64,000 nt of DNA, from contig BGOM01000015.1 of NCBI GenBank assembly GCA_003569245.1, positions 186,001-250,000 on the forward strand, read 5' to 3'. The notes under the pieces were generated by a model that saw nothing but the letters and a program-made list of their open reading frames with translations, was not told the origin of the DNA and searched no databases. Source of the stretch: Opitutia bacterium. Lineage in GTDB: Bacteria > Verrucomicrobiota > Verrucomicrobiia > Opitutales > UBA953. Numbering within the stretch: position 1 is the stretch's first letter; the number at the start of each line of letters is the position of its first letter. The translations under genes were made by a program, and so were the position numbers. Below, in pieces: positions 26,521-60,200 of the stretch.

Positions 26521-27276
26521 ATGTCCTCCGTCACCCTCTGCATCCCCGCCCGTCTCGCCTCGACGCGCCTGCCGCGCAAGGTCGTGCTCGACCTCGGCGG
26601 CAAGCCCGTCGTCCAGCATGTCTGGGAACGCGCCCGCCAGGTCCGCCAGGCCGACCGCGTCGTCCTGCTCACCGATTCCGAGGAAGTCGCCGACGTCGCC
26701 CGCGGCTTCGGCGCCGAGGTGCTGATGACCGACCCGGCCTGCCCTTCGGGCACGGCGCGCATGGCGAGCGTCATCGACCGCCTTCCCGGCGACTTCTTCC
26801 TCAACGTGCAGGGCGATGAACCGTTCATCCAGCCCGCGCTGCTCGACGGGCTCATCACCCGCTGGAAGGAGACCCGCTGCCCGCTGGTCACCGCGGTCTC
26901 GCGGATCACCACCGCCGAGCGCCTGCTGGCTTCCAGCGTCGTCAAGGTCGTCCGCGCCGAGAACGGCGAGGCCATCTACTTCTCGCGCAGCCCGATCCCG
27001 CACCTGCGCGGGGTCGACCCGGCCGAGTGGGTGTCGCGACGCGCCTATTGGGTCCACATCGGCGTCTACGGCTATGATCGCGCGACCTTGGCCGGCTACG
27101 GCCAGCTGGCGCCGACCGAACTCGAGGCGACGGAGTCGCTCGAACAGCTGCGCTTCCTCGCCCACGGCAAGACGTTCCAGACCGTCCTGACCGATTACCA
27201 CCCCGTCGCCATCGACACCCCGGAGGATCTCGAGACCGCGCGGCGCCTTCTGGCGCAAAGAGGTGACGTTAGTTGA
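26521..27276 (+). CDS. kdsB: 3-deoxy-manno-octulosonate cytidylyltransferase
   Basis: CIPARLASTRLPRKVVLDLGGKPVVQHVWERA; LNVQGDEPFI. Confidence 0.95.
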   Translation: MSSVTLCIPARLASTRLPRKVVLDLGGKPVVQHVWERARQVRQADRVVLLTDSEEVADVARGFGAEVLMTDPACPSGTARMASVIDRLPGDFFLNVQGDEPFIQPALLDGLITRWKETRCPLVTAVSRITTAERLLASSVVKVVRAENGEAIYFSRSPIPHLRGVDPAEWVSRRAYWVHIGVYGYDRATLAGYGQLAPTELEATESLEQLRFLAHGKTFQTVLTDYHPVAIDTPEDLETARRLLAQRGDVS

Positions 27277-27551
27277 CCCTTTGAAAAGCCGGCCGGTTGA
27301 CAAGGAATCCAAGCGCATCCCATCTGTCAGGCATAAGCCAGGCGCGAGCGATCGCGTTCTCGCCGCCGTCAGGTAACCGCAGACAGCGGTCGGAAGCACA
27401 TCCGAGACAAAGTCGCCGAGACGGGTGCCTCCCTTGTCCACTGGTCAACCGGTCAACTGGCCAGCCAGCTACTCGTTCCGGGCCTCTCAGCCTCTGGTCT
27501 GTCTCTTCCTCCGGCCAACTGGCCAACCATTCAACCGTTCAACCAGCCCCC
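27272..27551. repeat. 8-bp-period arrays: left 27272-27303, right 27434-27465 and 27512-27543
   Basis: GTTGACCC TTTGAAAA GCCGGCCG GTTGACAA | TTGTCCAC TGGTCAAC CGGTCAAC TGGCCAGC | CGGCCAAC TGGCCAAC CATTCAAC CGTTCAAC. Confidence 0.88.
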
Positions 27552-27558
27552 TCACCCC

Positions 27559-28533
27559 ATGACCACTCCCCTTCATTCCGCTCGCGCCCTCCTGCAGGCC
27601 GAAGCCGCCGCCCTCGGCGAACTGGCCGCGCGCCTCGACGGCGCCTTCACCCAGGCTGTCGACCTCATCGCGACCCACCCGGGCAAGGTCGTCCTCTGCG
27701 GCGTCGGCAAGTCCGGCCTCATCGGCCAGAAGATCGCCGCCACGCTCTGCAGCACGGGCACGCCGGCGATCTTCCTCCATGCCGCCGACGCGGTCCATGG
27801 CGACCTCGGCATCCTGCAGCCCGGCGACCCGGTCATCCTGATCTCCCGCTCCGGTTCCACCGCGGAGCTGGTGCGCCTGCTGCCGGTGCTGCGCGGGTTC
27901 AAATCGCCGCTTATCGCCATCGTCGGCAACCTGCAGTCGCCGTTGGCTGGCCAGGCCGACGTGGTGCTGGACATCGGCGCGCGTCCGGAGGCCGACCCCC
28001 TGGGCCTGGTGCCGACCACGAGCGCATTGCTGACCTTGGCGCTGGGCGACGCCCTCGCCGCGGCGCTGATGACGAAGCGTGGTTTCGGCGCGGCCGATTT
28101 CGCCCGCTTCCACCCGGCGGGCCAGCTGGGACGCAACCTGCTGCTCACCGTCGGCGAGGCGTCGCAGCCGCTCGAGCGGTGCGCCCGGGTCACCGCCGAG
28201 GCGTCGCTGCGCGACACCGTCATCGCGATGACGCAGTTCCCGCTGGGCGCGGCCTGCATCCTCGCGCCCGACGGCTCTCTCGTCGGCCTGATCACCGATG
28301 GCGACCTCCGCCGGGCCCTGAGCCGGGGTGTCGACCTCAATACCGCCCGGGCGGCCGACATCATGACCCGCAACCCGATCCGCGCCCACGCGGCGATGCC
28401 GCTGGGCGAGGCCGCCCGCATCATGGAGGACCGTCCTTCCCAGATCTCGGTGCTGCCGGTGACCGCGCCCGACTCGGCGCGCTGCCTCGGCCTGCTCCGC
28501 ATTCACGACATCTACCAGGCCGGTCTGGTCTGA
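27559..28533 (+). CDS. kdsD: Arabinose-5-phosphate isomerase (KpsF/GutQ, SIS + CBS)
   Basis: VVLCGVGKSGLIGQKIAATLCSTGTPAIFLHAADAVHGDLG; C-terminal CBS pair. Confidence 0.94.
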   Translation: MTTPLHSARALLQAEAAALGELAARLDGAFTQAVDLIATHPGKVVLCGVGKSGLIGQKIAATLCSTGTPAIFLHAADAVHGDLGILQPGDPVILISRSGSTAELVRLLPVLRGFKSPLIAIVGNLQSPLAGQADVVLDIGARPEADPLGLVPTTSALLTLALGDALAAALMTKRGFGAADFARFHPAGQLGRNLLLTVGEASQPLERCARVTAEASLRDTVIAMTQFPLGAACILAPDGSLVGLITDGDLRRALSRGVDLNTARAADIMTRNPIRAHAAMPLGEAARIMEDRPSQISVLPVTAPDSARCLGLLRIHDIYQAGLV

Positions 28534-28543
28534 GTCCCCGCCC

Positions 28544-30208
28544 GTGTCACCCCCCGCCGCCATCGCGCGCACCGTCACGACTTCCCGCGAATGGGCGGTC
28601 GGGGCGATTGCCGTGCTCATGCTCATCCTCGCCCCGTGGGGTTGGGGTGGGGTGGTGTTTTGGGTGGTCGCCGCGACCTGCGGTCTCGGGGTCGCCGCGC
28701 TGATCGGCGCTTGGGGCAGCCGCCGCTTCCAACTGGCCGCGGCCGTGGGCTGGGTCGGCTGGGCGATCGTCGCCGCCCTTCGGACCGCCGCGGCTTTGCG
28801 CGGCAGCGATGAGCCCGGGTTGCTGCCGTTCGTGCCCCCGGCGTTCTCCCTCGCCAACAACCCTTGGTGCGAGGCCCTGGCCTTCCCCGTGGCCGCGTTG
28901 GTCGGCCAGCTCCTCGCCTTCGCTTTCCTGCGCGAGCCGGCCGCGTCCCCCGACGCCTGGCCGCGGCTGCGCCGCTCGATCCCTTTCTGGGCGGGGCTCG
29001 CCTTCGCCGCCTACGTCGCGCTCCAAGCCGCCAACACCTATGGGACGGTGGTCGAACGCGACCTCTTCTGGCGGATCGTTCCCGAGCCGCACCTGGCCTG
29101 GCTCCCCGCCGGCCTCGGCGCCCCGTTGCGCTCCGACGGCATCGACCCGGGCGCGATGAACGGCTGGCGGCTGCTGATGATCCTCGGCGGCCCGTGGGCG
29201 TTCTTCTGCGCCCTGCGCGCCGCCGGTCTGCGCCGTCGCGCGCTCGTGGCCCTCGCCTGGATCTCCGTCGCCGCGGCCGTGCTTTTCGCGGCCTGGGGTT
29301 ATTTCAACCAGCCAAGCTCCGGGACGATCCTCGGTTTCGAGATCCCCCCCGCGTCGCAATCCTACGGCACGTTCATCAACCGCAACCACGCGGGCGCCTA
29401 CTTCTACCTCAACGCCGGCCTGGCGCTCGCCGTCGCGTGCTGGCACCTGCGCCGGGCCGGCGACCGGGCGGCCCAAGGCGGGCCGCATCTCCTCGCCGCG
29501 TTCGCGGCCGTCGTGCTCGCGTTGTTCGCGGCGCTCACCAACAGCATCGGCGCCGTCCTCGTCGTCGGCCTGCTCGGCCTGGTGGTCGCGCCGCTGACCT
29601 TGTTCCGAGGCTATCGCGACGACCAAGGCAAGGTGCGCCCGGGCGTGTGGGCCGCCGCGCTGGCCTCGGCGGGGATCGTCCTTGCGCTCGGCGCGGTCGC
29701 CGATTTCGGCCGGCTGGCCGACAAGGCGAGGGGCAAGGCCGATCGTTACCTGCAGGCGGGCGTCGACGACCGGGCCCCGCTGCGCGCCGCGACGTGGCAC
29801 ATGGCCCTCGACCGGCCTTGGACCGGGTGGGGCGCCGGTTCTTACCGATGGGTTTCCCCGGTCTACCAGGCCGAGCAGAAGGACTTGCAGGATGACCGCG
29901 GCCGTTTGCGGGTCCGCGCCTCGTACGCGCATCACGACTGGCTGCAGCTCTTCGCCGAAGTCGGCCTGCTCGGCCTGCTGCCGCTGCTGGCCGCCCTTTA
30001 CTGGCTCGGTCGCAAGTTCCGCGCGGCCCTCCGGCCCGGCCATCCGGAGGCGGTGCCGCTCGCGGGCTTGCTGTTGCTCTTCGCGGCGCATGCCTGCTTC
30101 GACCTGCTTTGCTGGTTCACGCCCTTGCTCACCGTGCTCGCCCTCGTCGTCGCGGCCTTCGCGGCCTTCACCGAGCAGTCCTCCGCCGGCCGCGCCTCCG
30201 CGAGCTGA
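28544..30208 (+). CDS. O-antigen ligase/polymerase-like multi-spanning membrane protein
   Basis: Many TM segments; NRNHAGAYFYLNAGLALAVA and SYAHHDWLQLFAEVGLLGLLP typical of WaaL/Wzy-like proteins. Confidence 0.8.
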   Translation: MSPPAAIARTVTTSREWAVGAIAVLMLILAPWGWGGVVFWVVAATCGLGVAALIGAWGSRRFQLAAAVGWVGWAIVAALRTAAALRGSDEPGLLPFVPPAFSLANNPWCEALAFPVAALVGQLLAFAFLREPAASPDAWPRLRRSIPFWAGLAFAAYVALQAANTYGTVVERDLFWRIVPEPHLAWLPAGLGAPLRSDGIDPGAMNGWRLLMILGGPWAFFCALRAAGLRRRALVALAWISVAAAVLFAAWGYFNQPSSGTILGFEIPPASQSYGTFINRNHAGAYFYLNAGLALAVACWHLRRAGDRAAQGGPHLLAAFAAVVLALFAALTNSIGAVLVVGLLGLVVAPLTLFRGYRDDQGKVRPGVWAAALASAGIVLALGAVADFGRLADKARGKADRYLQAGVDDRAPLRAATWHMALDRPWTGWGAGSYRWVSPVYQAEQKDLQDDRGRLRVRASYAHHDWLQLFAEVGLLGLLPLLAALYWLGRKFRAALRPGHPEAVPLAGLLLLFAAHACFDLLCWFTPLLTVLALVVAAFAAFTEQSSAGRASAS

Positions 30209-30220
30209 CGGCCCCCTCCT

Positions 30221-32257
30221 TTGCGGCAGTTGCTTCAATACCTGGATTCCGGTCGGACGGAACTCGCCCGCGTGCCCGCGCCCGGGCCGCGGCCCGGGCG
30301 TCTGCTGGTCCGCGCCACGTGCTCGCTGGTCTCGCTTGGTACGGAGCGCATGCTCGTCGAGTTCGGACGCGGTGGTTGGTTGAGCAAGGTCCGCCAGCAG
30401 CCCGAGAAATTCCGCCAGGTGCTCGCGAAGGCGCGCGCCGAAGGGATCTTCGTCACGGTCGCCGCGGTCCGCGGCAAGCTCGCCCGACCCATCCCGCTCG
30501 GCTACTGCCATGTCGGCCACGTGCTCGATGCGGGGGGCCTGCCCGGTTTCGCCGTCGGCGACCGCGTGGTCTCCAATTCGCCGCACGCCGAAGTGGTCTC
30601 GGCCGATCCGGCCTTCGCGGCCCGCGTGCCCGCCGCGGTCTCCGACGAACAAGCCGCCTTCACGCCGCTCGCCGCGGTCGCCCTGCAGGGTCTTCGTCCG
30701 GTCGCCGCCGGTCCGGGCGACACGGTGGTGGTGATGGGCCTCGGCCTGATCGGCCAGCTCGCGGTCCGGCTGCTCCGGGCCCGCGGTATCCGCGTGGTCG
30801 GCGTCGACCCCGATGAGGCGAAACGCGCCGCGGCGGCGCAAGCGGGCGCGGTCATCCCCGACGGGGCGACGGGTCTGTCGGCGCTCCTGCCCGGCGGCGC
30901 GGCCGGAGTGCTCATCACGGCCAGCACCGCTTCCGACGAACCGGTGAACCAGGCCGCCCGCCTCTGCCGCCGTCGCGGACGCGTCGTCCTCGTCGGCGTG
31001 ACGGGGCTCACGCTCAACCGCGCCGACTTCTACCAGAACGAGGTCACGTTCCAGGTCTCCCGCTCCTACGGCTCCGCCGATCCGGCCGACCCTTCCTCGG
31101 CCCGTGCCAATTTCGACGAGGTCCTCGCGCTCATGGCTTCCGGGGCGCTCGACGTCGCCCCGCTGCTGACCGCGCGTCAGCCGTTCTCCGCGGCGCCGGG
31201 GATCTACGATGACCTGCGTCGGCCCGGTGCCTACGGCCTGCTCATCGATTATGCCGTCGCACCGGAGGCGGCGGGACGGACGATCCCGGGGTTGGTCGAC
31301 TCACGGCCGTCCCGCGCGGTCGGACTCATCGGGTGCGGCAACTTCGCCGCTCGGGTGCTTGTGCCGGAGCTCCACCGGCTGGGTGCCCGGCCCTCCGTCT
31401 ACGCTTCCGCGAACGGACTTTCGGCGAACCTGCTCGCTGGCGAGGCGTGGACCGCCACCACCGAGGCGCGGACGGTGCTCGCCGACCCGGCCTTGAAGGC
31501 GGTCTTCATCGCGACCCGTCATGATGACCATGGCGAGCTCGCCCGGGCCGCGCTCGGCGCCGGCAAGCACGTCTGGGTCGAGAAGCCGCTCGCGCTGACC
31601 GAGGCCGACCTCGAGGCCACGCTGGCCGTCGCGCGTTCGTCTCCGTCCATCCTCGCCGTCGGGTTCAACCGGCGCTTCGCCCCGTTGGCCGTCCGCCTGC
31701 GCGGCGCGTTAGCCGCGCAGCCGGGCCGGCGCCGGTTCGTCGTCGACGTCAACGCGGGCCGCCTGCCGGCCGATCACTGGGCGCTTGATCCGCGGCAGGG
31801 TGGGGGACGTATCGTCGGCGAGGCCTGCCATTTCATCGATCTGCTTCGTTATCTGGCCGGCGCCCCCTTGGTGTCCGCCCACGCGATCTCGCGCGATGTC
31901 GACGGCCAGGACGGCGGCTGTTTCGAACTCGCCTTCGCCAACGGCGACGTCGCCGCGCTCAACTATCGCACCGACCTGCCGGCTCACCTGCCGAAGGAGC
32001 GCATCGCCGCCGCCGGCGAAGGTTGGTCCGCGGAGATCCTCAACTGGAAATCGCTCCGCGCGACGAACCTGCCCGGCGCCACCGCGCGTCCCGCCTGGCT
32101 CGGCGGTCCCGCCCGCGGCAAAGGCCACGCCGAAGCCCTCGCCGCTTTCCTCGCCGCCGTCGGTGCCGGCGGCGGCGCCCCGATTCCGCTCGACGAGCTC
32201 GCGGAAGTCTCCCGCTGGAGCATCCGGATGCAGGTAATGAAGCCGGTACAAAGTTGA
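30221..32257 (+). CDS. Bi-domain oxidoreductase: zinc-type alcohol dehydrogenase-like plus Gfo/Idh/MocA (TTG start)
   Basis: N-terminal MDR-like (GDTVVVMGLGLIGQLAVRLLRARG) and C-terminal Gfo/Idh (AVGLIGCGNFAARVLVPEL...VWVEKPLALTEADLE). Confidence 0.88.
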   Translation: MRQLLQYLDSGRTELARVPAPGPRPGRLLVRATCSLVSLGTERMLVEFGRGGWLSKVRQQPEKFRQVLAKARAEGIFVTVAAVRGKLARPIPLGYCHVGHVLDAGGLPGFAVGDRVVSNSPHAEVVSADPAFAARVPAAVSDEQAAFTPLAAVALQGLRPVAAGPGDTVVVMGLGLIGQLAVRLLRARGIRVVGVDPDEAKRAAAAQAGAVIPDGATGLSALLPGGAAGVLITASTASDEPVNQAARLCRRRGRVVLVGVTGLTLNRADFYQNEVTFQVSRSYGSADPADPSSARANFDEVLALMASGALDVAPLLTARQPFSAAPGIYDDLRRPGAYGLLIDYAVAPEAAGRTIPGLVDSRPSRAVGLIGCGNFAARVLVPELHRLGARPSVYASANGLSANLLAGEAWTATTEARTVLADPALKAVFIATRHDDHGELARAALGAGKHVWVEKPLALTEADLEATLAVARSSPSILAVGFNRRFAPLAVRLRGALAAQPGRRRFVVDVNAGRLPADHWALDPRQGGGRIVGEACHFIDLLRYLAGAPLVSAHAISRDVDGQDGGCFELAFANGDVAALNYRTDLPAHLPKERIAAAGEGWSAEILNWKSLRATNLPGATARPAWLGGPARGKGHAEALAAFLAAVGAGGGAPIPLDELAEVSRWSIRMQVMKPVQS

Positions 32258-32393
32258 CCCGTCGACCCGTGGGCCGGTTGACACGAAGAAAAACCATTTA
32301 GGGTCTCGGGTCTCGGACCACGGTTCCCCTTTGAGTTAAGTCCGCCGCCTCCCTTGCCCGTCGGTCAACGGGTCAGCCAGCCAGCTTGCCCCC
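32253..32393. repeat. 8-bp-period inverted array pair: left 32253-32284, right 32354-32393
   Basis: GTTGACCC GTCGACCC GTGGGCCG GTTGACAC | TTGCCCGT CGGTCAAC GGGTCAGC CAGCCAGC TTGCCCCC. Confidence 0.88.
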
Positions 32394-32403
32394 TCCTCTC
32401 ACC

Positions 32404-33624
32404 ATGTCCTCGCTCTGCGTTCTCGGCCTCGGCTACATCGGCCTGCCCACCGCGTCGATCTTCGCGACCAAGGGGCGTTCCGTGCTCGGGGTCGATATCG
32501 CCCCGGAGGTGGTCGCCACCATCAACAGCGGGCGTATCCATATCCAGGAGCCCGACCTCGACGTGCTGGTCCGCGCCGCGGTGCAGTCTGGCAACCTGCG
32601 CGCCGCGACCGCGCCCGCGGCGGCGGAGACTTTCATCATCGCGGTACCGACGCCCTTCACGGTCGACGCGGCCGGCGCCCGGCGTCCCGACCTGAGTTTC
32701 GTCGAGGCGGCGGCCCGCTCGCTCGCCGCCGTCGTCGCCCCCGGTAATCTCATCGTGCTGGAGTCGACCTCCCCGGTCGGCACCACGGAGAAGGTGAAGG
32801 CGTGGGTCGAGGACGAGCTGCGCCGGCGCGGCCGCGCGGTCGATGGCCTGCTCTACGCCCATTGTCCCGAGCGGATCCTGCCCGGCCAGATGCTCAAGGA
32901 ACTGATCGCCAACGACCGCATCGTCGGCGGCCTCACCCCCGAGGCTTCCGCCCGGGCGAAGGCCCTCTACGAGATTTTCTGCGCGGCGCAGATCTTCGTG
33001 ACGGACGCCCGCACCGCCGAGCTCGCCAAACTGACCGAGAACGCGTTCCGCGACGTCAACATCGCCTTCGCGAACGAGCTGTCGATGATCTGCGACCGGC
33101 TCGGCGTCGACGTCTGGGAACTCATCCGCCTGGCCAACCGGCACCCGCGCGTGAAGATCCTGCAGCCCGGCCCGGGCGTCGGCGGCCATTGCATCGCGGT
33201 CGATCCCTGGTTCATCGTCGACGCCGCCCCCGCGGAGGCGCGCCTCCTGCGGACGGCGCGCGAGGTGAATGACGCGAAGCCGGGCCATGTGCTCGCGCGG
33301 ATCCGCGCGCAGGTGACGCCCGGCGCGGCGGTGGCCTGCCTCGGCCTGGCGTTCAAGGCGAACGTCGACGACCTCCGCGAATCCCCGGCGCTGGATATCG
33401 CCGTCCACCTCGCCGCCGAGGGTTACCGGGTGCTGGCGGTGGAGCCGCATATCACCACCTTGCCCGCCGCCCTCGCCGGCCGCGCCGAGCTCGTCGACCT
33501 CGCGACGGCCTTCGCCCGGGCGGACGCCATCGTCCTCCTGGTCGACCACCGCGCCTTTGGGTCGCTGACGTTGGCGGATCTGGCCGGCAAGGCCCTGATC
33601 GACACGCGCGGGCAGATCCGCTGA
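32404..33624 (+). CDS. wecC: UDP-N-acetyl-D-mannosamine dehydrogenase
   Basis: SLCVLGLGYIGLPTASIFATKG; LTENAFRDVNIAFANELSMICDRLGVDVWELIRLANRHPRVKILQPGPGVGGHCIAVDPWF. Confidence 0.93.
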   Translation: MSSLCVLGLGYIGLPTASIFATKGRSVLGVDIAPEVVATINSGRIHIQEPDLDVLVRAAVQSGNLRAATAPAAAETFIIAVPTPFTVDAAGARRPDLSFVEAAARSLAAVVAPGNLIVLESTSPVGTTEKVKAWVEDELRRRGRAVDGLLYAHCPERILPGQMLKELIANDRIVGGLTPEASARAKALYEIFCAAQIFVTDARTAELAKLTENAFRDVNIAFANELSMICDRLGVDVWELIRLANRHPRVKILQPGPGVGGHCIAVDPWFIVDAAPAEARLLRTAREVNDAKPGHVLARIRAQVTPGAAVACLGLAFKANVDDLRESPALDIAVHLAAEGYRVLAVEPHITTLPAALAGRAELVDLATAFARADAIVLLVDHRAFGSLTLADLAGKALIDTRGQIR

Positions 33625-33629
33625 CTCCC

Positions 33630-35572
33630 TTGTACCTCTCGGCCCTTGCTCATCTCGGACCTGCGTGGTTCTGGCGCCGGCTTTGGTTCCGGGCCGAGCG
33701 TTCGCTCGGTTGCCTGGAACGACGCTGCCCTCTCCGCGCCTGGGATCAGGTCGATGTTCCGGCCGACTACGCCGACCGCTGGCGTCGTTCCGTTCCCCGT
33801 CTGCCTATCGCGAAGATCGACCGCGCTTACCTGGCCCCGCACGTCGAGGCTTACGCGGTCGCCAACGGCCACTCCCCGGTCGCGGAAGCCGACCTGCTCG
33901 CCCGCGGCCGCTTCCGGATCTTCGACCATGACCTCGTCGAGGCCGGGATGCCGCCGCGCTGGCACGTCAGCGTGCTCGATGGTGCGCTCGTCGACGCCTC
34001 CGTCCATTGGACGAAGCTGTCCGCCGCCGGCCCCGTGGACATCAAGGGCGTCTGGGAGCTCTCGCGCTTCGCCTGGGTCTACCCGTTGGTGCGAGCCTGG
34101 GTCCTGGATGGCGAGGCCCGGCATGTCGAAAACTTCTGGCGATTGCTCGAGGACTGGATGGCGGCGAACCCGCCGAACCGCGGGCCGCAATGGATGTGCG
34201 GGCAGGAGGCGTCGATGCGGCTCATCGCCGTCGCGTTCGCGCTCCAGGCCTTCCGCGCGCACCCGGCCACGACGGACGCCCGGCTGCTGCTGACCGCGCG
34301 ACTGGCGACCGTGACCGCGGAACGTATCCGCGCGCACCTGGCCTACGCTCTTTCCCAGGAGAACAACCATGGCCTGAGCGAGTCGCTGGGGCTCTACACG
34401 GCGGGCGCGCTGTGGCCGCAGCTGAAGCACGCCCCGGCCTGGCGCGACCAAGGGCTGGAAACCCTTTTCCCGCAGGTCGAAGCGTTGGTCGATCCCGCGG
34501 AGGGCGGCTTCAGCCAGCATTCGACGAATTACCACCGACTCTTCCTGCAGCTCATGACCTGGGCGGAGGTCGTCCTCGGAGCCGAGGGCCAGCAGCTGCC
34601 TCCGCGGACCCGCGCGCGCGTCGGTCGGGCCACCGAGTTCCTCTCCGACCTGCTGGAGCCCGATGGCACGGTGCCGCGTTATGGCGCCGACGACAGCGCC
34701 AATCTCTTTCCGCTGAGCGGGCTACCCGCCCGCGATTTCCGTCCCGCCCTCGTCGCCGCCCAGGCGCTTTTCCTGGGAGACCGTCCGTCCGCGGGGCCGT
34801 GGGATGAAGCCGCCTTGTTGCTCATCGGGCCGAGGCCCGTCTCCGCGCGCGTGCTGACGCGCACGGAAAAAGTCTTCCGCCCCGCCGCCGGCGTCGGCCT
34901 GCTGCGCCATCCGCGCGGGACCGCTTTTTTCCGGGCGCCCGTGCGCTCACCTTGGCGGCACCGGCCCAGCCAGGCGGACCACCAGCACGTCTCTCTCCGC
35001 TGGGACGGCGCCTGGATCGCCGAAGATGTCGGCACCTTCACCTACGCAGGCGTCGGCCCCGACGACTTCGGGTCGGCCATCCACCATGACGTCGTCACGG
35101 TCGACCGGCGCGGCCCCATGCGTAAGGTCGGCCGGTTCCTCTGGCTCCCCTGGACTTCCTGTTCGCCTCTTTCCACACCGCAGGGTTGGGCGCGACCTGC
35201 CGCGATCTCGGCGGTGCGCGGTGGGATCGTCGGGTCCTCCGCTTCCCGCAAGGGTTCGTCATCCTCGATCAGGTACGCGCCACCGAGCCGGCAAGCTGCT
35301 GCGAGCTCCGCTGGCATGGCCGGACCCGCGCGGGCCTCGCACGGCTTTCCCTCGCCTGCTCCCAGCCGTCGCAGGAAGCCTGGGTCACCGCGGATGCCCG
35401 GACCGGCGAAGGCTTCTTCGCGCCCTGCTACGGTCGCCGTGAGCCCGCATGGACCCGTCGGCTGACCGCCGTGGGCCCGTCGGTCACCTTCGTCACGGCG
35501 CTGGGCTGCCAGGTCGAGCTGCGCGCCGACGTCTTGCTCGTCGATGGCGAGTCCATCCCCCTTCCACCCTGA
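33630..35572 (+). pseudogene. Heparinase II/III-family protein, split by a frameshift near 35147-35150
   Basis: N-terminal part in ORF 33630-35465, C-terminal part (LDFLFASFHTAGLGATCRDLGGARWDRRVLRFPQGFVILDQV...) in another frame ending 35572. Confidence 0.78.
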
Positions 35573-36726
35573 TGCGCACCGTCGCTCTCATCGTCGGCAC
35601 CCGCCCCGAGGTCATCAAGCTGGCCCCGGTTTACTTCGCGCTGCGGGACTCCGCGCAGCTTCGCCCGGTCCTGGTGGCCACCGCGCAGCATCGCCAGATG
35701 CTCGACCAGGCGCTCGGCGCCTTCGGCCTCAAGGCCGACCACGACCTCGACCTCATGCGGCCGGGCCAGACGTTGCCGGAGCTGACCGGCCGCGTCGTCA
35801 CCGCGGTCTGCGGCTGGCTCGATCGCCATCACCCCGATGTCGTCCTCGTCCAAGGCGACACCACGACCGTCCTCGGGTCGGCCTTGGCCGCGTTCTACTC
35901 GGGCATCCCGGTCGGACACGTCGAGGCGGGTCTCCGCACCGGCTCCCTGCGCACGCCTTTCCCCGAGGAGATGAACCGCCGCGTGACCTCGACGTTGACG
36001 CGCTGGCATTTCTGCCCGACGGAAGGGGCGCGCGCGAACCTCCTCCGCGAAGGCGTCGCGCCCGCGCATTGCCATGTCACCGGCAACACGGTGGTCGACG
36101 CCTTGTTGGGCGCCCGCGAGCGGGCGCGGTTGGCTCCCGCCGAGCTGCCGGCCTTCGCCGCCCGGTTGGGCATCCCCGAAGCTTTCGCCGCCCGCCACCT
36201 CGGCCCCGGCGGCGCTCCCTGGGCGCTGATGACCGGTCATCGCCGCGAGTCTTTCGGCGAGGGCTTCGAGCGAATCTGCCAAGCCATCCGGCGTCTCACC
36301 GAGGAGCATCCCGACCTGGGCGTGATCTACCCGGTGCACCTCAACCCCCAGGTCCAGGAGCCGGTCCGCCGCCTCCTGCAGGATCATCCCCGGGTCGTCC
36401 TGATCCCGCCGACCGACCACCTCGATTTCATCCGGCTCCTCGATCGCGCGACCTTCGTCCTCACGGATTCGGGCGGGGTGCAGGAGGAGGCGCCCACCTT
36501 GGGCAAGCCGGTCCTGGTCCTGCGCGACAGCACGGAGCGGCCGGAGGGCGTGGCCGCCGGCACCTGCGTCCTCGTGGGGACCGATCCGGCGCGCATCGTC
36601 GCCGAAGCCGCGCGGCTGCTCCGCGACCCGGCCGAGTACGCCCGCCGCGCCGCCTTGCGCAACCCGTACGGCGACGGCCAGGCCGCGGGCCGGATCCGCG
36701 CGATCCTCGAGCGGGAACCGCTCTGA
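35572..36726 (+). CDS. wecB: UDP-N-acetylglucosamine 2-epimerase (non-hydrolysing)
   Basis: MRTVALIVGTRPEVIKLAPVYFAL; GHVEAGLRTGSLRTPFPEEMNR; LTDSGGVQEEAPTLGKPVLVLRDSTERPEG. Confidence 0.95.
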   Translation: MRTVALIVGTRPEVIKLAPVYFALRDSAQLRPVLVATAQHRQMLDQALGAFGLKADHDLDLMRPGQTLPELTGRVVTAVCGWLDRHHPDVVLVQGDTTTVLGSALAAFYSGIPVGHVEAGLRTGSLRTPFPEEMNRRVTSTLTRWHFCPTEGARANLLREGVAPAHCHVTGNTVVDALLGARERARLAPAELPAFAARLGIPEAFAARHLGPGGAPWALMTGHRRESFGEGFERICQAIRRLTEEHPDLGVIYPVHLNPQVQEPVRRLLQDHPRVVLIPPTDHLDFIRLLDRATFVLTDSGGVQEEAPTLGKPVLVLRDSTERPEGVAAGTCVLVGTDPARIVAEAARLLRDPAEYARRAALRNPYGDGQAAGRIRAILEREPL

Positions 36727-36733
36727 CCATCCG

Positions 36734-37951: not shown

Positions 37952-37965
37952 AGGTCCCCTCGCTT

Positions 37966-50466: not shown

Positions 50467-50467
50467 G

Positions 50468-51868: not shown

Positions 51869-52889
51869 GGTCAGCGTCATTTTCCTGTGCTACAATCAGG
51901 AGAGGTTTGTCGAGGCAGCCCTGCGCTCGGCCTTGGATCAGGCCTACCCCGACTTCGAGGTCATCGTGGCGGATGATTGCTCGACGGATAAGACGATGGA
52001 GGTGATCCAATCGGTGCTCAACCGGCACCCACGGGCTTCGGTCGTGCGGATGGTGCCTGCCTCCGCCAACCTCGGCATCGCGCGGAACTGGGACCGATCG
52101 ACAGGGTACGCCCAAGGAGAAATCCTCGTCTGCATGGCCGGCGACGATGTCTCGCGCCCCGACAGGCTGGACAAGGTCGTGGCGGTCTTTGAGGCGGAGG
52201 CGGCGGCGCAGGCGGTCGTCAGCCAGGTGCGAGTCATCGATCGGGATGGCCGGACGATCCGGGACAGGTTCGAGTCAGGAAGCCGCCGGGCCGGACTGTT
52301 ATGCAGGAATCCCGCGATGAGCGGCTACGCTTTTTGGTCCGATGTCCCGGTGATCGGAGCCTCTGCGGCCTATCGTTCCGGGGTCGTGAGGAATCTCGGC
52401 GCTATCGAGCATGCCGCATCGGAAGATAACTCCAGTTTCTACCGGGCGTTGCTCACGGGGGGAGTATGGTATTTGCCCGAAGCCTTGGTGGATTGGCGTT
52501 GGCACGGCCGCAACGCATCCAACGGGGCCGGCCATCCCGATGAAGATCCGGCCGTCTCCGTCGCAAGGCATGCCCAGCGGGCGCGTGCGGAGTACGATGC
52601 TTGCCGGCAATACCGGGCCGATGCCGCGAAAGTTCATTCGAGCGGCCTGCTCGGGGCCAAAGCCTACGCCTCGGAACTCCGCAGGATCGAGCTCTTGGAG
52701 TCGCTCCTGATGCTGGGCTGGAAGTCAGCCGACCCCGCCCAATCATTCCGGTCCGTCCTCGCGAGCGCCCTTCGCCACGTGATGGCTGAGCGCTTTCGCC
52801 CCAGGGCATTGGGCTATGCGCTGCGCTCGCTATTGAAGGCCGCTTCTCCGGTAAAACTGAGAGCCCTCATCCATCGTCGTTCCCGCTGA
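51855..52889 (+). CDS. Family 2 glycosyltransferase
   Basis: VSVIFLCYNQERFVEAALRSALDQAYPDFEVIVADDCSTDKT; MAGDDVSRPDR. Confidence 0.92.
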   Translation: MPRPKVSVIFLCYNQERFVEAALRSALDQAYPDFEVIVADDCSTDKTMEVIQSVLNRHPRASVVRMVPASANLGIARNWDRSTGYAQGEILVCMAGDDVSRPDRLDKVVAVFEAEAAAQAVVSQVRVIDRDGRTIRDRFESGSRRAGLLCRNPAMSGYAFWSDVPVIGASAAYRSGVVRNLGAIEHAASEDNSSFYRALLTGGVWYLPEALVDWRWHGRNASNGAGHPDEDPAVSVARHAQRARAEYDACRQYRADAAKVHSSGLLGAKAYASELRRIELLESLLMLGWKSADPAQSFRSVLASALRHVMAERFRPRALGYALRSLLKAASPVKLRALIHRRSR

Positions 52890-53094
52890 GCCCCCCGAAG
52901 GCTGATCCGGTCTGCAGGAAAGTCCTGCTCCGGGTGCCCGCAGCGGATCAAGGGTGATCAACCCCGCCTCGTTCCACCCTGTCGTGACGGGGTCCCGGCC
53001 CGGCCCGCCGCATCCCTGGCCCGCTGGCCAGATCACGCCGCATCAATCGGGCCAACCGCGTCGCTTGATGCCGGCCTTGCCCATTCCCCAACCC

Positions 53095-54117
53095 ATGCCC
53101 GAGCTCGCCACCTTCGCGCTATTCGCTTACCGCCACGAAGCATTCGTGGCGGAGGCCATCCGTTCGGTGGCGAAGCAGACATATCGCCCATTGGAATTGG
53201 TCATCACCGACGACGCCTCGCCGGACGAAACTCGCCGGAAGATCGACGAAGCCCTGCGGGACTTCCCGGCCGATATCCCGGTCATCCGCATCAATCATCC
53301 GCAGAATCAGGGAATCCCCGGCGTCATCAACGCCGCGGTGCGTCAAGCCTCCGGGCGGGTCATCGTCTTCGGTGCCGGCGATGACGTTTCCGAGCCGGAA
53401 CGCGTCGCCCGGACCATGCGGGTTTTTGCCGATCCCCGCGTCGCCTTCGCCCACACCGCGGCCAGCGTCATCGACGAGGAAGGTGAACTGGTCCGAGGAC
53501 GGGAAGGGGCGGGCCATCGGGATGCGGAGCTTTCCCTGGCGGGGATGCTGCTGGGCGCGGGCGCCCCGATCCTCGGCGCCACCTGCGCCTATCGCGCCGA
53601 TGTGTTCCGCGAATTCGCGGAGCTGCCGCCGCAGATCCTGCGGGAGGATGTCATCCTGCCTATCCGCGGGCTGATCCTGGGCGAAGGCCGTTTCATCGCC
53701 CGCAAGCTGGTCCGCTACCGCACGCATGCGGGTAATCTGCACAGTCCCGCGCCTGCGCAGTCCTCGGCCGAGATGGTCCGGCGCAACCTCAGGTTCGCCG
53801 ATGACCGGGAGGCATCCTGCGCGCAACTCGGCGCGGACATCGCGAAAGCCCGGGCTGACGGACGCATCCTGCCAGACGAACTGGACCTTTATCTTCGTCA
53901 GGAAGCGGCCTATTCCGCGGTCGAGCAGCGTCTGCTCAGGACCAAGTCTATGTTCGTTCGGGCCGGGCAAGTCGCGCTTGCCTGGTCGCTTCGCCGGATC
54001 GGCACGGTCAAGGCGATGAAATTATTCACGCTTTTCGTCACCCCTTTCCTTTATGCGCCGGTACTCAAGGCATGGATTCGTCTGAGTGAACGTAAACGTC
54101 AGATACGCCATGGTTAA
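53095..54117 (+). CDS. Family 2 glycosyltransferase (start placed at MPELATF)
   Basis: TFALFAYRHEAFVAEAIRSVAKQTYRPLELVITDDASPDETR; GAGDDVSEPERV. Confidence 0.9.
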   Translation: MPELATFALFAYRHEAFVAEAIRSVAKQTYRPLELVITDDASPDETRRKIDEALRDFPADIPVIRINHPQNQGIPGVINAAVRQASGRVIVFGAGDDVSEPERVARTMRVFADPRVAFAHTAASVIDEEGELVRGREGAGHRDAELSLAGMLLGAGAPILGATCAYRADVFREFAELPPQILREDVILPIRGLILGEGRFIARKLVRYRTHAGNLHSPAPAQSSAEMVRRNLRFADDREASCAQLGADIAKARADGRILPDELDLYLRQEAAYSAVEQRLLRTKSMFVRAGQVALAWSLRRIGTVKAMKLFTLFVTPFLYAPVLKAWIRLSERKRQIRHG

Positions 54118-55174
54118 GACACCCACAGAGAAGAGCCAGCTGCCCATGAACGACCTCGCTTTCTCATGGAATGGTCTGCCGCAATATGCGGCCAGGCTTT
54201 TGGCGGCCGCAGGGCGGGAATTTGGCCGGTCCTTCCCCGTCATCGGCTCCCGCCCGGCTGTTCCGGTAGGTGGCATGGAGGAAGCGCTCGGCTGGCCCGC
54301 GCATTGGCTCGACGCCACGCGCCCCGTTTCATGGCAAGACCTCGGGCTATCTGTGCCCGGAGTCTTTTTCCAATCAGGCTGGGCATACCCGGCATTCAAT
54401 GCCTTGGGAGACGAAGTCCGCGCCGCCGGCGGCAAGGTGTGTCTCCTGATGGACAATAATTGGCGGGGGGATTTCCGCCAGTGGCTCGGGGCGCCTTGGT
54501 TCCGGCTTTGCCAACGCCGCAAGTTCGCCGCCATCCTGGTGCCGGGCAAGTCCGGCCGGAGATTGGCCCGTTGGTACGGCATGGACGATCGGCTGATTCA
54601 CGAGGGCATGTATGGCGCCGACCCCGCCTTGTTCCACGATGGGCCTCCCCTGGCCGAAAGACCTAAGCGGGTTCTTTTCGTCGGGCAGTACATCGACCGG
54701 AAAGGCTGCGTGCCGCTGGCCCGGGCTTTCGCCCGCGTCGCCCACCGGCTCCCGGATTGGGAACTCTGCCTGTATGGGAGCGGACCCTTGCAGTCTGCGA
54801 TCCCCTCGCACCCGCGCATCAAGGTCCATGGCTTCATCCAGCCGGAGCAACTAGGCTCGCTTTACCGCCAGGCCCGCATCTTCGCCCTCCCTAGTTTCTC
54901 GGAGGCGTGGGGCGTGGTCGTCCATGAAGCTGCGCTGTCCGGCTGCCAGCTCCTGCTTTCGGACGCGATCGGTTCGGCGGAAGATTTCGCGACCCCGGCC
55001 AATGCCCGGCTGTTCCGTCCCGGCGATGAAGCCGGCCTGGCCGCCGCCTTGATCGATCTCGCCACGTCGCCAGACCTTGGGGCGGCGCAGGCCGCTTCGC
55101 TCACCGCCGCCGAGAGCCACGGACCGGCGGTCTTCGCTCGCCGGGTCGGGGAGATTATCCGGCAGCTGTCCTGA
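54110..55174 (+). CDS. Family 4 glycosyltransferase
   Basis: KRVLFVGQYIDRKGCVPLARAFA; FALPSFSEAWGVVVHEAALSGCQLLLSDAIGS. Confidence 0.88.
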   Translation: MVKTPTEKSQLPMNDLAFSWNGLPQYAARLLAAAGREFGRSFPVIGSRPAVPVGGMEEALGWPAHWLDATRPVSWQDLGLSVPGVFFQSGWAYPAFNALGDEVRAAGGKVCLLMDNNWRGDFRQWLGAPWFRLCQRRKFAAILVPGKSGRRLARWYGMDDRLIHEGMYGADPALFHDGPPLAERPKRVLFVGQYIDRKGCVPLARAFARVAHRLPDWELCLYGSGPLQSAIPSHPRIKVHGFIQPEQLGSLYRQARIFALPSFSEAWGVVVHEAALSGCQLLLSDAIGSAEDFATPANARLFRPGDEAGLAAALIDLATSPDLGAAQAASLTAAESHGPAVFARRVGEIIRQLS

Positions 55175-55202
55175 ATCGTCTCGCTCAGGCCTCCGGGCAT
55201 GC

Positions 55203-55229
55203 AAGCCGCGCTTTCTGCGCGGCTTTTTT
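55203..55229 (+). terminator. Rho-independent terminator
   Basis: AAGCCGCGC-TTTCT-GCGCGGCTT followed by TTTTG. Confidence 0.92.
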
Positions 55230-55241
55230 GTGCCCCTTTTG

Positions 55242-55463
55242 GGTGGTAGCGGTTGGCGGTTAGCGGCTGGGAAAACAAATCTCGCCGCCTGCCACCCGTA
55301 GCCGCCGCCCGCCACCCGGAACGATTCACCCAGGCCAATCATCCGGTCTCCGGTTTTCTTTTGAGCCCTGCCGATAGCATCCCTTGTCAACGGGCCAACT
55401 TGCCAACGAATCGACTCGTTTTGTCTCGTTCCGGCCAACCGGCCAACGGGTCAACGGCTCGAC
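55242..55463. repeat. 7-bp arrays (55242-55269; looser 55284-55318) and two 8-bp NNGYCAAC arrays (55384-55415, 55432-55463)
   Basis: GGTGGTA GCGGTTG GCGGTTA GCGGCTG; TTGTCAAC GGGCCAAC TTGCCAAC GAATCGAC; CGGCCAAC CGGCCAAC GGGTCAAC GGCTCGAC. Confidence 0.87.
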
Positions 55464-55504
55464 TCATCTTGCGCCTTCGCTTCCTGGCCCGCACAATCTG
55501 CCCG

Positions 55505-58149
55505 ATGCCCCGCCTCTTGGCCTTCAACTGCCTCCTGCTGCTCGCCGTCACCTTGCGCGCGGGCGGATTATTCGAGGCTGGTGCCTGGGCTCCGGTCGTA
55601 CTCCCGGCGACGCCGGAGACGGAGGAATGGTACGCCGCCCAGACCTTGCTCGATTGGTGCGAGCGCGTCACCGGCGTCCGCCCGGAACTGATCGCGGAGC
55701 AACCTGGGGTCGCCTTGCCCGCCCGCGGGCTCTTCGTCGGTCGCACCGCCGCGTGGCAGGCGTTGCGGCGCCCGCTACCCGACGTGGAAGGCGACCTGCT
55801 GGTGCGCGACGTCGAAGGCGAGGCGCTGTTCCTGCTCGGAACGAATCCCCTCGCGACACGCGCCGCGGTCGGCCGGTTCTGCGAGCAGGCGCTCGGCGTC
55901 TGCTTCGCCTTCCCCGGCCCGCGCGGCGCCGATTGGGTCATGCGGTCGTCGGTGGGCGTGCCTGCCGCCGAACGTTTCCGCCCGGCCTTCGCGTGGCGCG
56001 AGATCTCCGGCCTGTCCAACGAGCTCTCCCAGGAATGGGCCTATAACGTCGGCTACGGCAAAGCCCCGGAGTTTTCGCACGGCTTTTTCCGCGCCTTCAA
56101 CCAGGAGGTCTTCGCCGATTTCCTGGAAGATTTTGAAAACTATCGAAGTCCGGAGGGTTCGGCCCGGAGGACAGCCAATGCCTTCCCGCGGTCGGCACCG
56201 GTACGGGCAGGTGAGGGCAAGGCCCAGATTGATCCCGTAAGCCGGGCTTCGAGCCTTGGGTGATTTCCCTCTCATCCGATAAACCCTTTTACGAGGCCTC
56301 CCCGTTTTACGATGAAGAGTGGTGGGATGTTTGGCCGCGGCCGAAGCCCGACTTCGATGGGTACGACCCGATGCCGCGCCTCAAGGTCCCGTCGGCGGTG
56401 GAGATCGGCGCGCGCTACACGCGCGACTGGTTCCACCAGCACCCCGGTGCGTTCAGCGTGCCGTTCGGCGTCAATGACACCTTGCGCTTCCTTGGCTCCC
56501 CGCCGTCCGAGGGTTGGTATCGCGACCGTCCGGTGCGGACCGATTACGTGATGGGCTACCTCAACGAAGTCGCCCAGTCGTTCTGGGAACCGTCGGGTGA
56601 CCTCTCCGGCCTGCGCCACGCCATCGGGACGCTGGGCTACCTGCAGACCTTGCGCGCCCCGACGATCCGCCTGCACCCGGCGATCTTCCCCTGGATCTGC
56701 GCCGACCGCAGCGCCTACGCCAACCCCGACTTCGCCGCGATGGAATCGGTCAACCTCGCCGCCTGGGTGCGCTCCGGCGTCCGACGGGTCGGCGCTTACG
56801 ATTATTGGTACGGCGCCGACTACACCGTCCCGCGCGTGTCTTTCCGGGCGCAGGCCGACGCCATCCGCACGGTGCACGCCGCCGGGGTCGTCGGTTGGTA
56901 CGCCGAGCTGGCCCCGCTCTGGGCCTTCGACGCCCCGAAGGCTTGGTTGGGCGCGAAGCTCCTCCAGGATCCCGGTCAGGATGCGGAGGCCCTGCTCGCG
57001 ACCTGGTTCGCCGCGGCCTACGGTCCCGCGGCCGCCGAGATGCGCGCGGCTTACCGTGTCCTCGAGGGCGCGTGGGAACGCGACGCGCGCGCCGGGGGCG
57101 TCGACCAGTGGATCCGCCATTTCCGTACCGAAGGGTCGACCTTCGTGCTCACTTCGGCGGAGCTCGCCGCGGTCTCCGCGCGGGTCGAGGCCGCGCGTCG
57201 CCTCCTCGCGGCCCAGGATAAGCCCACGTTCCGGCTCGCCAACCAACGCTGGCGCCTCGAGCAGTTCGCCGAGGCCTGGGCCTTGAGTTGTGCCTTCCGC
57301 GGTGTTGTCGCGACCCGTCGCGCCGCCGATCCGGCCAACGCCGCCGAAGCCGTCGCCCAGCTCAGCGCCTTATCCGCCGCCGAGTCCGCCTACCGACGGG
57401 CGGAGTCCACCTTCAACACCGCGTGGGGGGCGTATGGACTCCCGGTCGCCTGGAGCCGTTTCGCCGCCACCAATCCTCGCCCCGAGTGGCTCGACGCCGC
57501 CATGCCCTACGGTTTCGCGCGGGTGGCCGGACCTACGCGACGGGCGCTCGCCACCTGGGCCGCCGGCGACACGCTCGGCAACGGCGCCGTGCTCTGGAGG
57601 CTCGCCCAATTGCCGGAAGACCGCGAACGTCTCCAAGCGCGCATGGAGCACACCAAGGACCGTAATCACGGCGGCGCTTACTTCATCGGCGAACTCAGCC
57701 CGAGTCGGCGTAACCAGGTGAACGGGCGTCCGGAGGATGAGTCGACCAACTACAACGCCCATATCCTCGCCCCGGCAGGAAAGATCAAAGGGGTTCCCTA
57801 CACGAATAGAGGAGATGTCGGCAGCGGTTGGAGCGACCGCCTCGTCCCCGGCTTCATCCTGGATTTTCAAGTGGAGCTGGATGCGGCGAAGACCCGCGAC
57901 CCCGAAGCCAAGGCTCGGCTGGTGCTGACTTTCACCGACGGGAAAAAGACGCGGACGATCGCGCAGGAATGCCGCCCGACCGGCGGACGCTTGGTGGTGG
58001 AAGTTCCCGACGGCTTCGACTGGGGTGTTGCTGGTCAACCCGACGACTGGCGCGGGGAAATCAAGTATTCGCTCCGGTATGAACTGACCTTCGAGAAGGA
58101 GGTTGCGGTCAAGGAGATCGACCTTGTGCTGTGGAGCCCTCGCCGCTGA
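55505..58149 (+). pseudogene. Secreted DUF4838-type protein (glycoside-hydrolase-like), split by a frameshift near 56239-56240
   Basis: Signal-peptide-like N-terminus (MPRLLAFNCLLLLAVTLRAG); N-terminal half ends in ORF 55253-56263, C-terminal half in ORF 56260-58149. Confidence 0.7.
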
Positions 58150-58152
58150 GCC

Positions 58153-58749
58153 ATGGTCAAGCGCCTCTTCGATATCTTCTTCGCCCTCGGGTGGCTCGTG
58201 CTCTTCACCCCGCTCATGCTGGTCGTCGCCGGACTCGTCCGCCTGAAACTGGGTTCCCCGGTGCTCTTCATCCAGGAACGCCCCGGGCTGCGCGGGCGGC
58301 CCTTCCGCATGGTGAAATTCCGCACCATGACCGACGAGCGCGGCCCCGATGGGCAGCTCCTGCCCGACGAGCTGCGTCTCACCGCCTTCGGGAAATTCCT
58401 CCGCGCCTCCACCCTCGACGAGTTTCCCGAGATGTGGAACGTGCTCGTCGGCGACATGAGCGTCGTCGGCCCGCGCCCGCTCCTGATGCGCTACCTCCCG
58501 CGTTACGACGCCTTCCAGGCCCGGCGCATGGAAGTGAAACCCGGCGTCACCGGCTGGGCCCAGGTCAACGGCCGCAACGCCCTCAGCTGGGAGCAGAAGT
58601 TCGCCTACGACGTCTGGTACGTCGACCACCGCACCCTCTGGCTCGACCTGAAGATCGTGGTCCTGACCTTCTTCAAGGTCTTCGCGCGCTCCGGCATCAA
58701 CTCGGACAAAGCGGCGACGATGGAGGAGTTTCGGGGTGGCAAGAGTTAG
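58153..58749 (+). CDS. Initiating sugar transferase (PglC/WbaP catalytic-domain family)
   Basis: KRLFDIFFALGWLVLFTPLML; VKFRTMTDERG; LDEFPEMWNVLVGDMSVVGPRPLLM; VKPGVTGWAQVNGRN. Confidence 0.95.
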   Translation: MVKRLFDIFFALGWLVLFTPLMLVVAGLVRLKLGSPVLFIQERPGLRGRPFRMVKFRTMTDERGPDGQLLPDELRLTAFGKFLRASTLDEFPEMWNVLVGDMSVVGPRPLLMRYLPRYDAFQARRMEVKPGVTGWAQVNGRNALSWEQKFAYDVWYVDHRTLWLDLKIVVLTFFKVFARSGINSDKAATMEEFRGGKS

Positions 58750-58799
58750 CTGGCCGGCTGGCCAGTGGGCCAGCTGACTAGGAGCCAGCCGCCAGCCAA
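58745..58799. repeat. 8-bp-period array filling the gap between convergent genes
   Basis: GTTAGCTG GCCGGCTG GCCAGTGG GCCAGCTG, then GCCAGCC GCCAGCC. Confidence 0.8.
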
Positions 58800-59900
58800 C
58801 TACGCCTTCTTCACGCCCAACGGCCGCAGGACCGGATCGCGGGCCAGCGGCAGTTCGACCGTTACGCCGCCATTCTGCGCGGATTGATAGAGGGCGAGGA
58901 TGAGCTCGACGGCCTTGCGGCCTTCGGCGCCGTCGACCGCGGGTGGTCGGCCGGCGCGGATCGCCTCGATGGCGTCGACCAGGTTAAGCCGGTGCCAGCC
59001 GTGGCTGATCGCCTTGGGGTCGGCCGCGCCGGCGCCACCGGTCTCCGCCGCGGAAGCGAGGAACCCGGCGTCGGCGGGCAGGGGAGGGTCGAACTCAAAG
59101 GACGTCAGCTTGTCGTCGCGCAGGACCGCCGCGCCCTTCGTGCCGTGGATACGGATCTCGGCGGGGAAGCCGGTGGCCGACCAGCAGGCCGTCGAGCCGG
59201 CCAGCGTGGCGCGGGCGCCATTGGCGAATTCGATCCAGCCGACGGCGATGTCCTCGACCTCGATGCCGGCGTGCGCGACCAGACCGAGGGTGGCCGAGAC
59301 ACGCTTCACCGGTCCGAGGAACCAGAGGAGCAGGTCGATGGTGTGGATACCTTGGTTCATCAAGGCCCCGCCCCCGTCGAGCGCGTAGGTCCCGCGCCAG
59401 GCGGCGGAGTCGTAATAGGCCTGGGTCCGCCACCAAGGGATGAGGGCCGAGGCCAACGTCACCGGACCGAAGCGGCCCGCGTCGAGGGCGGCCTTCAGCG
59501 CGATCGACCCGCGCACGTAGCGGCGGGGCAGGATTCCGGCGACCGTCACGCCGGCGGCGCGCGCGGCGGCGATCAGTTCGTCGCATTTCGCCAAGGTGAC
59601 CTCCAGCGGCTTCTCGACGACCACGTGCTTGCCCGCGCGGATGCACGCGAGGGCGGGGGCGAGGTGGTCGCCGCTGGGGGTGCACAGGCAGACGACATCG
59701 ACCGCGGGGTCGGCCAGGAGCGCTTCCGGCGTCACGGCGACGGCGCACCCATGGGTGGCGGCGAAGGCGGCGGCCTTCGCGGGGGTCCGGTTATAGGCCG
59801 CGACCAGGCGCGCGTCGGGGATCTCAGCCAAGGCCTTGGCGTGGAACTCGGCGATCATGCCGGTTCCCCAGATGCCGAACCCGAGCGGTCGTTGGGACAT
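58800..59900 (-). CDS. Gfo/Idh/MocA family oxidoreductase
   Basis: LGFGIWGTGMIAEFHAKALAEIPDARLVAAYNRTPAKAAAFA; KHVVVEKPLEVT. Confidence 0.92.
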   Translation of the reverse strand: MSQRPLGFGIWGTGMIAEFHAKALAEIPDARLVAAYNRTPAKAAAFAATHGCAVAVTPEALLADPAVDVVCLCTPSGDHLAPALACIRAGKHVVVEKPLEVTLAKCDELIAAARAAGVTVAGILPRRYVRGSIALKAALDAGRFGPVTLASALIPWWRTQAYYDSAAWRGTYALDGGGALMNQGIHTIDLLLWFLGPVKRVSATLGLVAHAGIEVEDIAVGWIEFANGARATLAGSTACWSATGFPAEIRIHGTKGAAVLRDDKLTSFEFDPPLPADAGFLASAAETGGAGAADPKAISHGWHRLNLVDAIEAIRAGRPPAVDGAEGRKAVELILALYQSAQNGGVTVELPLARDPVLRPLGVKKA

Positions 59901-59903
59901 GGC

Positions 59904-60200
59904 GGGAGTTAGAGGGCAAGTGAGCGAGGGGGCAAGAGGACAGCGTCAGAGGCAACACGAGTTGACCCGTTGACACGCTGGCAAGGGGTGGACCCCGTTG
60001 GCAGGTTGATAAGCTGGTGAGGGCAGAAATATCTCCAACCGCTTACCGCCTACCGCTACCACCTTTTATGGGTAGGGCCCGGACCGCGTCACGACATAGC
60101 TCCTTCCCCTCGCCCCTGTTAACGTGGTCCCTAAGCCTTGGGTTTGTCGATCTTGTCAACGTGTCAACTTGCCAGCCGGCCAGCTAGTGGCCTGGCCGCC
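59904..60200. repeat. Complex of short-period arrays: 8-bp at 59904-59943, 59961-59992, 59997-60020 and 60153-60200; 7-bp at 60036-60063
   Basis: GTTGACCC GTTGACAC GCTGGCAA; GTTGGCAG GTTGATAA GCTGGTGA; CAACCGC TTACCGC CTACCGC TACCACC; TTGTCAAC GTGTCAAC TTGCCAGC CGGCCAGC. Confidence 0.85.

Follow-up and report, generated by a model that had tools for sequence, protein, structure and literature searches.

Four-Box Elements of the Window

The window analysed here, a stretch of 64,000 nucleotides from an Opitutia bacterium (assembly GCA_003569245.1, contig BGOM01000015.1, positions 186,001 to 250,000 of the forward strand), belongs to a draft genome of 2.45 Mb in 24 contigs that is 91% complete. 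The gaps between its genes, which were called from a simple codon model, harbour a short repeat built of four successive 8-bp boxes of the form NNGYCARC, designated below as the four-box element, whose copies were located and scored with R1, a sequence model of the element that yields rough E-values. The initial annotation of this DNA had listed arrays on the plus strand at 27442, 27512, 55384 and 60153, all of which are present, and arrays on the minus strand at 32253 and 59961, which are clear. A further minus-strand array listed at 27272 is real (R1 E=2e-5) but decayed, since only two of its four boxes fit. Additional copies, which had escaped that list, occur at 32362 (+), 55432 (+) and 58749 (-), together with a partial copy at 59997 (-).

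The decayed copy (27269..27309, minus strand) lies at the 3' end of kdsB, where its GTTGAC supplies the TGA stop codon of the gene (27274-27276); a better-kept version occurs in the nearest relative (G014). Two plus-strand copies are located upstream of kdsD, the first at 27427..27467 (TTGTCCAC TGGTCAAC CGGTCAAC TGGCCAGC, 42.5 bits) and the second at 27505..27545 (CGGCCAAC TGGCCAAC CATTCAAC CGTTCAAC, 31.5 bits). Upstream of the UDP-ManNAc dehydrogenase gene, a plus-strand copy with three clear boxes (32347..32388, 24.6 bits) accompanies a minus-strand copy which overlaps the TGA (32255-32257) that terminates the upstream gene (32251..32287, 31.0 bits). Two plus-strand elements share a single gap, at 55378..55412 (TTGTCAAC GGGCCAAC TTGCCAAC GAATCGAC, 30.2 bits) and 55426..55457 (CGGCCAAC CGGCCAAC GGGTCAAC GGCTCGAC, 27.7 bits), and a minus-strand element (58746..58783, 28.5 bits) fills a short convergent gap and is directed toward the gene at 58153-58749, at its stop end. 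Finally, a divergent gap contains a minus-strand element (59960..59991, 25.5 bits) which points left to the gene at 58800-59900, a partial second one in the same half-gap (59997..60017, minus strand, 11.6 bits, E=0.016), and a plus-strand element (60148..60187, TTGTCAAC GTGTCAAC TTGCCAGC CGGCCAGC, 35.8 bits) directed to the right, toward the dTDP-glucose dehydratase gene. Between the left- and right-pointing elements of this gap, a degenerate GTAG palindrome can be recognized from its sequence (GGTAGGGCCCGGACCGCGTCACGACATAG, 60071..60099), and near-identical palindromes occur in other genomes of the genus.

Structure of the Four-Box Element

A survey of arrays covered a total of 1.14 Mb from 12 congeneric genomes, all of them drafts in which arrays often lie at contig ends; the stretches were picked mostly around arrays, and gap length was controlled coarsely. 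The consensus consists of four NNGYCARC boxes (32 bp), often preceded by TGCMTCCC and followed by TA. Runs of two, three and four boxes stop with probabilities of 0.04, 0.14 and 0.91, respectively, so that the unit number, given as three to five in the initial annotation, is in fact fixed at four in 91% of the runs that reach this length. Loci from other, independent genomes contained 29 four-box runs and no longer one. An ungapped alignment of 54 elements spans 44 columns, and 188 of 207 four-box sequences are distinct from each other. The arrays thus represent a single intergenic element, dispersed, non-palindromic and of fixed length, and are not open-ended.

In unselected boxes, Y4, C5, A6, R7 and C8 are each kept in more than 90% of cases and G3 in 73% (A in 23%). 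The two leading positions, previously described as freely varying, are indeed highly diverse, but A accounts for only about 2% of position 1 and C for about 3% of position 2. Neighbouring boxes hardly resemble each other more than ordinal-matched boxes taken from other arrays (similarity 0.567 vs 0.527), in agreement with the earlier view that simple slippage did not generate the arrays. Slippage predicts smoothly declining run lengths, which are not observed, and the homogenised neighbours of micro- and minisatellites are equally missing.

The arrays lie far above chance, since the window contains 8 runs of at least three boxes vs 0 expected from Markov shuffles of order 1-3, and the genus survey yielded 286 arrays vs 0-2 in Markov-shuffled intergenic DNA (orders 2-5). 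In array-bearing species, intergenic autocorrelation shows an excess, most of all at lag 8 but likewise at lags 6 and 7, and the excess at lags 6-8 persists after the arrays have been masked; congeners without arrays and other families show none. This weak period-8 signal outside the called arrays is what could be expected from microsatellite-like slippage or from chance in C-rich intergenic DNA but, owing to the fixed number of four boxes, the dissimilar neighbours, the shuffle results and the large proportion of distinct sequences, such an origin is scarcely credible.

No consensus base pairs occur within the 54 aligned elements, in contrast to the hairpin that typifies repetitive extragenic palindromes (REPs), and an RNA structure of the element was accordingly rejected as an explanation. 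The element also lacks a GTAG or GTRG head at its end, as it begins after TGCMTCCC and stops before TA. It finds no match in Rfam and does not belong to the catalogued REPs, whereas the palindromes next to it are GTAG REPs.

Occurrence in the Genus

With R1, the present genome yields 63 copies at a threshold of E<=0.001 and 73 at 0.01. They are clustered in a few stretches, among them the polysaccharide region of the window. Of 37 genomes from a single Opitutae genus, 29 carry the element; copy numbers extend from 0 to a maximum of 123 in G029, and 20 other families of the order gave no R1 match. Some species of the genus are entirely devoid of it, and a copy number ranging from 0 to 123 indicates that the element is not essential. 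A scan of public contigs for the four-box pattern gave, among the matches listed, mostly sporadic and unrelated ones in other phyla. With respect to location, 235 of the 286 arrays are intergenic, 50 are situated at stretch or contig edges and a single one is coding; the element shares with REPs this dispersed, intergenic and high-copy distribution.

Orientation toward Gene Edges

The C-rich strand of the element points toward the nearby gene edge in 113 of 113 elements that have one gene edge within 100 nt and the second 150 nt or more away (81 stop ends and 32 start ends), and this polarity was replicated in 24 of 24 cases drawn from loci of genomes unused in rule finding. In all gene arrangements, copies that point right are found in the right-hand part of the gap and those that point left in the left-hand part. 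We know of no described bacterial repeat that obeys such a nearest-gene-edge pointing rule at starts and stops alike. Other phased C-rich phrases follow the same rule, namely CACCTTTGCA (34:2), TGCCCACGTG (22:0) and AGCCTCYG (36:2), whereas the palindrome-derived phrase CCGGTYTCC breaks it (43:22). Moreover, whole gaps of these genomes switch from purine-rich to pyrimidine-rich at their middle in every gene arrangement, array-less gaps included; among congeners lacking arrays the switch is weak, and the sampled families outside the genus show it weakly or not at all.

Several side observations concern these gaps. Both GC skew and purine content reverse at mid-gap in the genus, regardless of the direction of the flanking genes. 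A dispersed phrase, CACCTTTGCAC / GTGCAAAGGTGCAAA, which occurs in four loci (L263, L264, L265, L249) from the genomes G004, G012 and G010, has the same strictly outward polarity (34:2), and these loci also contain an imperfect palindrome of about 150 bp based on CAGGTCTCGGGTCTCGG. Phased phrases of 7 bp, GCGGTTR and its reverse complement CCGCYTA/CCGCTAA, occur in the window at 23774-23803, 55245-55320 and 60038-60064; they share gaps with the element and often form an inverted pair about the gap centre.

A polarity directed to gene edges is what would be needed by a selected gene-boundary element stopping transcription into the gene from the gap, with the C-rich strand read as RNA, and the mid-gap switch and the like polarity of other C-rich phrases are consistent with such a device. 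It would also profit from the C/G ratio of 1.68 of the C-rich strand, an excess of C over G that also marks Rho sites, and from the higher density of the element in convergent gaps (2.6 vs 1.2 per kb in divergent gaps, values which are not genome averages because the stretches were picked mostly around arrays). However, at divergent and tandem genes the element points as well into the promoter and the 5' leader, a place in which it would cut the gene's own mRNA; the C-rich strand of single copies folds more stably than mono-shuffles; and species of the same genus manage without it. We therefore consider this reading conceivable but doubtful, and regard as equally tentative its more detailed version, in which a hairpin core bordered by pyrimidine-rich outer arms would resemble a bidirectional terminator and might depend on Rho. 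With Rho utilisation sites the element has in common a C-rich strand and a YC dinucleotide in every box, but Rho sites are described by YC dimers spaced 9-13 nt (PMC9160355), in contrast to the constant pitch of 8 nt, the fixed length and the tight box sequence found here. An identity with such sites was rejected on account of this pitch.

The presence of left- and right-pointing copies facing outward in one gap also evokes the terminal inverted repeats of a miniature inverted-repeat transposable element (MITE), or the two arms of one hairpin spanning the gap. Some other gap families, e.g., CAGGTCTCGG, do form palindromes, and two-sided gaps show a weak excess (odds ratio 2.3, p=0.008, uncorrected for gap length). 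But array gaps are mostly one-sided (42 left, 59 right, 23 both), their interiors are unrelated, and the k-mers common to both arms (103) do not exceed those of permuted gaps (108 +/- 17). The absence of a k-mer excess and the predominance of one-sided gaps speak against both a gap-spanning hairpin and a paired-end MITE, so that this origin appears very improbable. Complementarity between the two arms of a gap does not exceed that between arms taken from different gaps, and no consensus pairing exists, so that the RNA hairpin proposed in the initial annotation is unsupported. Gene-flanking inverted-repeat cassettes and panhandles between mRNA 5' and 3' ends were similarly discarded, in view of the lack of any excess in sequence or presence.

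Association with GTAG Palindromes and RAYT Genes

Palindromes of the type GGTAGGG...CCCTACC reach 1.5 to 15 per 10 kb of gap in the array-bearing species, and none was found in the sampled gaps of seven other families. The four-box element points away from a GTAG palindrome located in the same gap in 120 of 122 cases and, where the side of the palindrome and the gap midpoint conflict, the palindrome is followed in 13 of 14. Among the 63 elements lying close to a palindrome, 31 start 11-12 bp from its CTACC end, with a junction that reads CCCTACC(N)RTTGCATCCC.

The genus also encodes short proteins of the REP-associated tyrosine transposase (RAYT) type, which match NCBIfam NF047646 with E-values of 2e-24 to 3e-19, one of them above and two near the cut-off. 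GTAG palindromes occur on both flanks of the RAYT genes of G016 and G024, and beside those of G029 and G001; the palindrome of the G029 gene also directly adjoins an element. Owing to these RAYT genes flanked by them, the palindromes correspond to GTAG REPs in the accepted sense (PMC2817692, PMC3733652). REP-flanked RAYT transposase genes from three species of the genus (L364:1506-2112, L365:3402-4074 and L362:3774-4390) offer a good set for the study of Opitutae REPs. As a separate observation, a palindromic dispersed family, CCAATCATCCGGTCTCCGGTTTYCYTTTGAG, occurs at 55337-55365 of the window and in the kdsB-kdsD gaps of G007, G015 and G016 (L262, L267, L276), and its two orientations are much more evenly represented (43:22) than those of the four-box element.

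Variation between Orthologous Gaps

In orthologous gaps of close species, flanked by proteins that are 94-100% identical, the outer parts remain identical while whole inner modules have been swapped. Elements lying between two conserved flanks evolve roughly as fast as the flanks do, which points to neither hypermutation nor strong protection of single copies. An early impression that changes affected only the variable positions had suggested hypermutation of the leading dinucleotide, an idea that was dropped in view of this flank-like rate. The copy at 27269 has lost fixed positions retained by the nearest relative. In the present genome, kdsB has lost the TAA which is still present in G007 and now ends at the TGA within this copy, which shows that an element can provide a stop codon in reserve; as it contains a TGA every 8 nt, all three frames are served.

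When copies are aligned, positions 1-2 account for most of the differences (39/230), as compared with positions 3 and 5-8 (26/575). Together with the fixed box number, the ungapped alignment and the constancy of the box positions that follow two diverse leading ones, this distribution would suit an operator for a factor that would bind DNA or RNA through four modules, each reading GYCARC at a pitch of 8 bp. Single copies are nevertheless not strongly protected, as judged from their flank-like rate of change and from the decayed copy at 27269; no candidate binder was identified and the copy number falls to 0 in some genomes. Such an operator therefore seems unlikely.

Relationship to Known Repeats and Probable Origin

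Bacterial interspersed mosaic elements (BIMEs) are REP-containing intergenic mosaics of enterobacteria. The gaps examined here resemble them as intergenic mosaics of GTAG-type palindromes and other short motifs, which are modular, variable between close strains and densest in convergent gaps. They depart from BIMEs by a non-palindromic module of 4 x 8 bp with a near-absolute polarity toward gene edges and, to our knowledge, this module is not among the described BIME motifs. With GTAG REPs, REPINs and their RAYT (TnpA-REP) proteins (PMC3733652, PMC2817692, PMC8266576), the genus shares the GTAG palindromes and the RAYT genes flanked by them, and elements are often found in the same gaps; the element itself differs by the lack of a palindrome, a GTAG head and consensus pairing, and by its absence beside RAYT genes. 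Opitutus terrae has been reported as rich in REPs, and the GTAG-15, GTAG-23 and CGTC-1 targets are palindromic repeats that serve as landing sites and are interrupted by the REP (PMC3733652). There too, REPs are regularly joined to another repeat, but the companion found here consists of a direct four-box array lying outside and not of an interrupted palindrome.

Taken as a whole, the association with REPs, the restricted range and the swapping of modules suggest, with a probability of roughly 0.55, that the four-box element represents a new module, itself non-palindromic, within a REP mosaic of BIME-like type, and that it is restricted to a single Opitutae genus and has spread by copying and recombination. 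The 11-12 bp junctions, the fixed relative orientation and the exchange of modules agree with a mosaic in which REPs are combined with other conserved motifs. Its mobile core would be the GTAG palindromes (REPs/REPINs), with or beside which the element would have been disseminated through transposition of the RAYT type and through recombination among scattered copies, mainly as a passenger. Orientation may have been set by placement on the outer side of the palindromic centre, or by intolerance of the reverse orientation at gene edges, and the G-rich strand may serve as a fail-safe stop where the element overlaps the 3' end of a gene. Of the three readings offered by the initial annotation (modular binding protein, RNA hairpin and mobile miniature element), that of a dispersed, mobile sequence is the best supported, although as a module of a REP mosaic and not as a paired-end MITE.

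Several results weigh against this origin within a REP mosaic. A CTACC palindrome end lies within 60 nt of only a minority of elements (63 of 277). Searches for Y1_Tnp/RAYT proteins found none in the present genome or in the 99%-complete G019, both of which carry the element, and no element occurs beside the short RAYT genes examined. In gaps where no palindrome or strong hairpin was found, 46 of 50 elements still point outward with respect to the gap midpoint, which means that palindromes cannot be the only cause of orientation. The midpoint was in turn rejected as the sole cue, as the palindrome wins where the two disagree, although the midpoint still works in the absence of palindromes. The conservation of positions 3 and 5-8, next to the high diversity of positions 1-2, resembles a sequence-specific recognition that would be superfluous for a passenger.

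Placement relative to palindromic centres hence explains most orientations but not those in gaps devoid of visible palindromes. The element may also have been selected for a function in binding or at boundaries, mostly because the six constrained positions of each box are conserved and the two leading ones are not; any role at gene boundaries would be a putative one. A bolder proposal, which we hold to be quite unlikely, assumes a dedicated gene-boundary mark read by a genus-specific factor, whose four modules would recognize GYCARC at a pitch of 8 bp and act in a polar manner on anything entering the gene from the gap, at starts and stops alike, the REP palindromes forming the core of the boundary.

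Other Features of the Window

Two adjacent giant open reading frames occupy positions 4621-12840 and 12867-21503 of the window (2739 and 2878 aa). They are followed by a tRNA gene, identified from Rfam, in the convergent gap at 21629-21703, which represents the sole Rfam match in the whole window.

Significance

REP mosaics are usually described by their palindromes, whereas the genus considered here possesses a non-palindromic four-box companion that can be traced through 37 related genomes. In this respect, the species of the same genus that are free of the element represent a natural control, and an explanation of the polarity rule would expose either the mode of construction of the mosaic or a hidden kind of gene-boundary signal.

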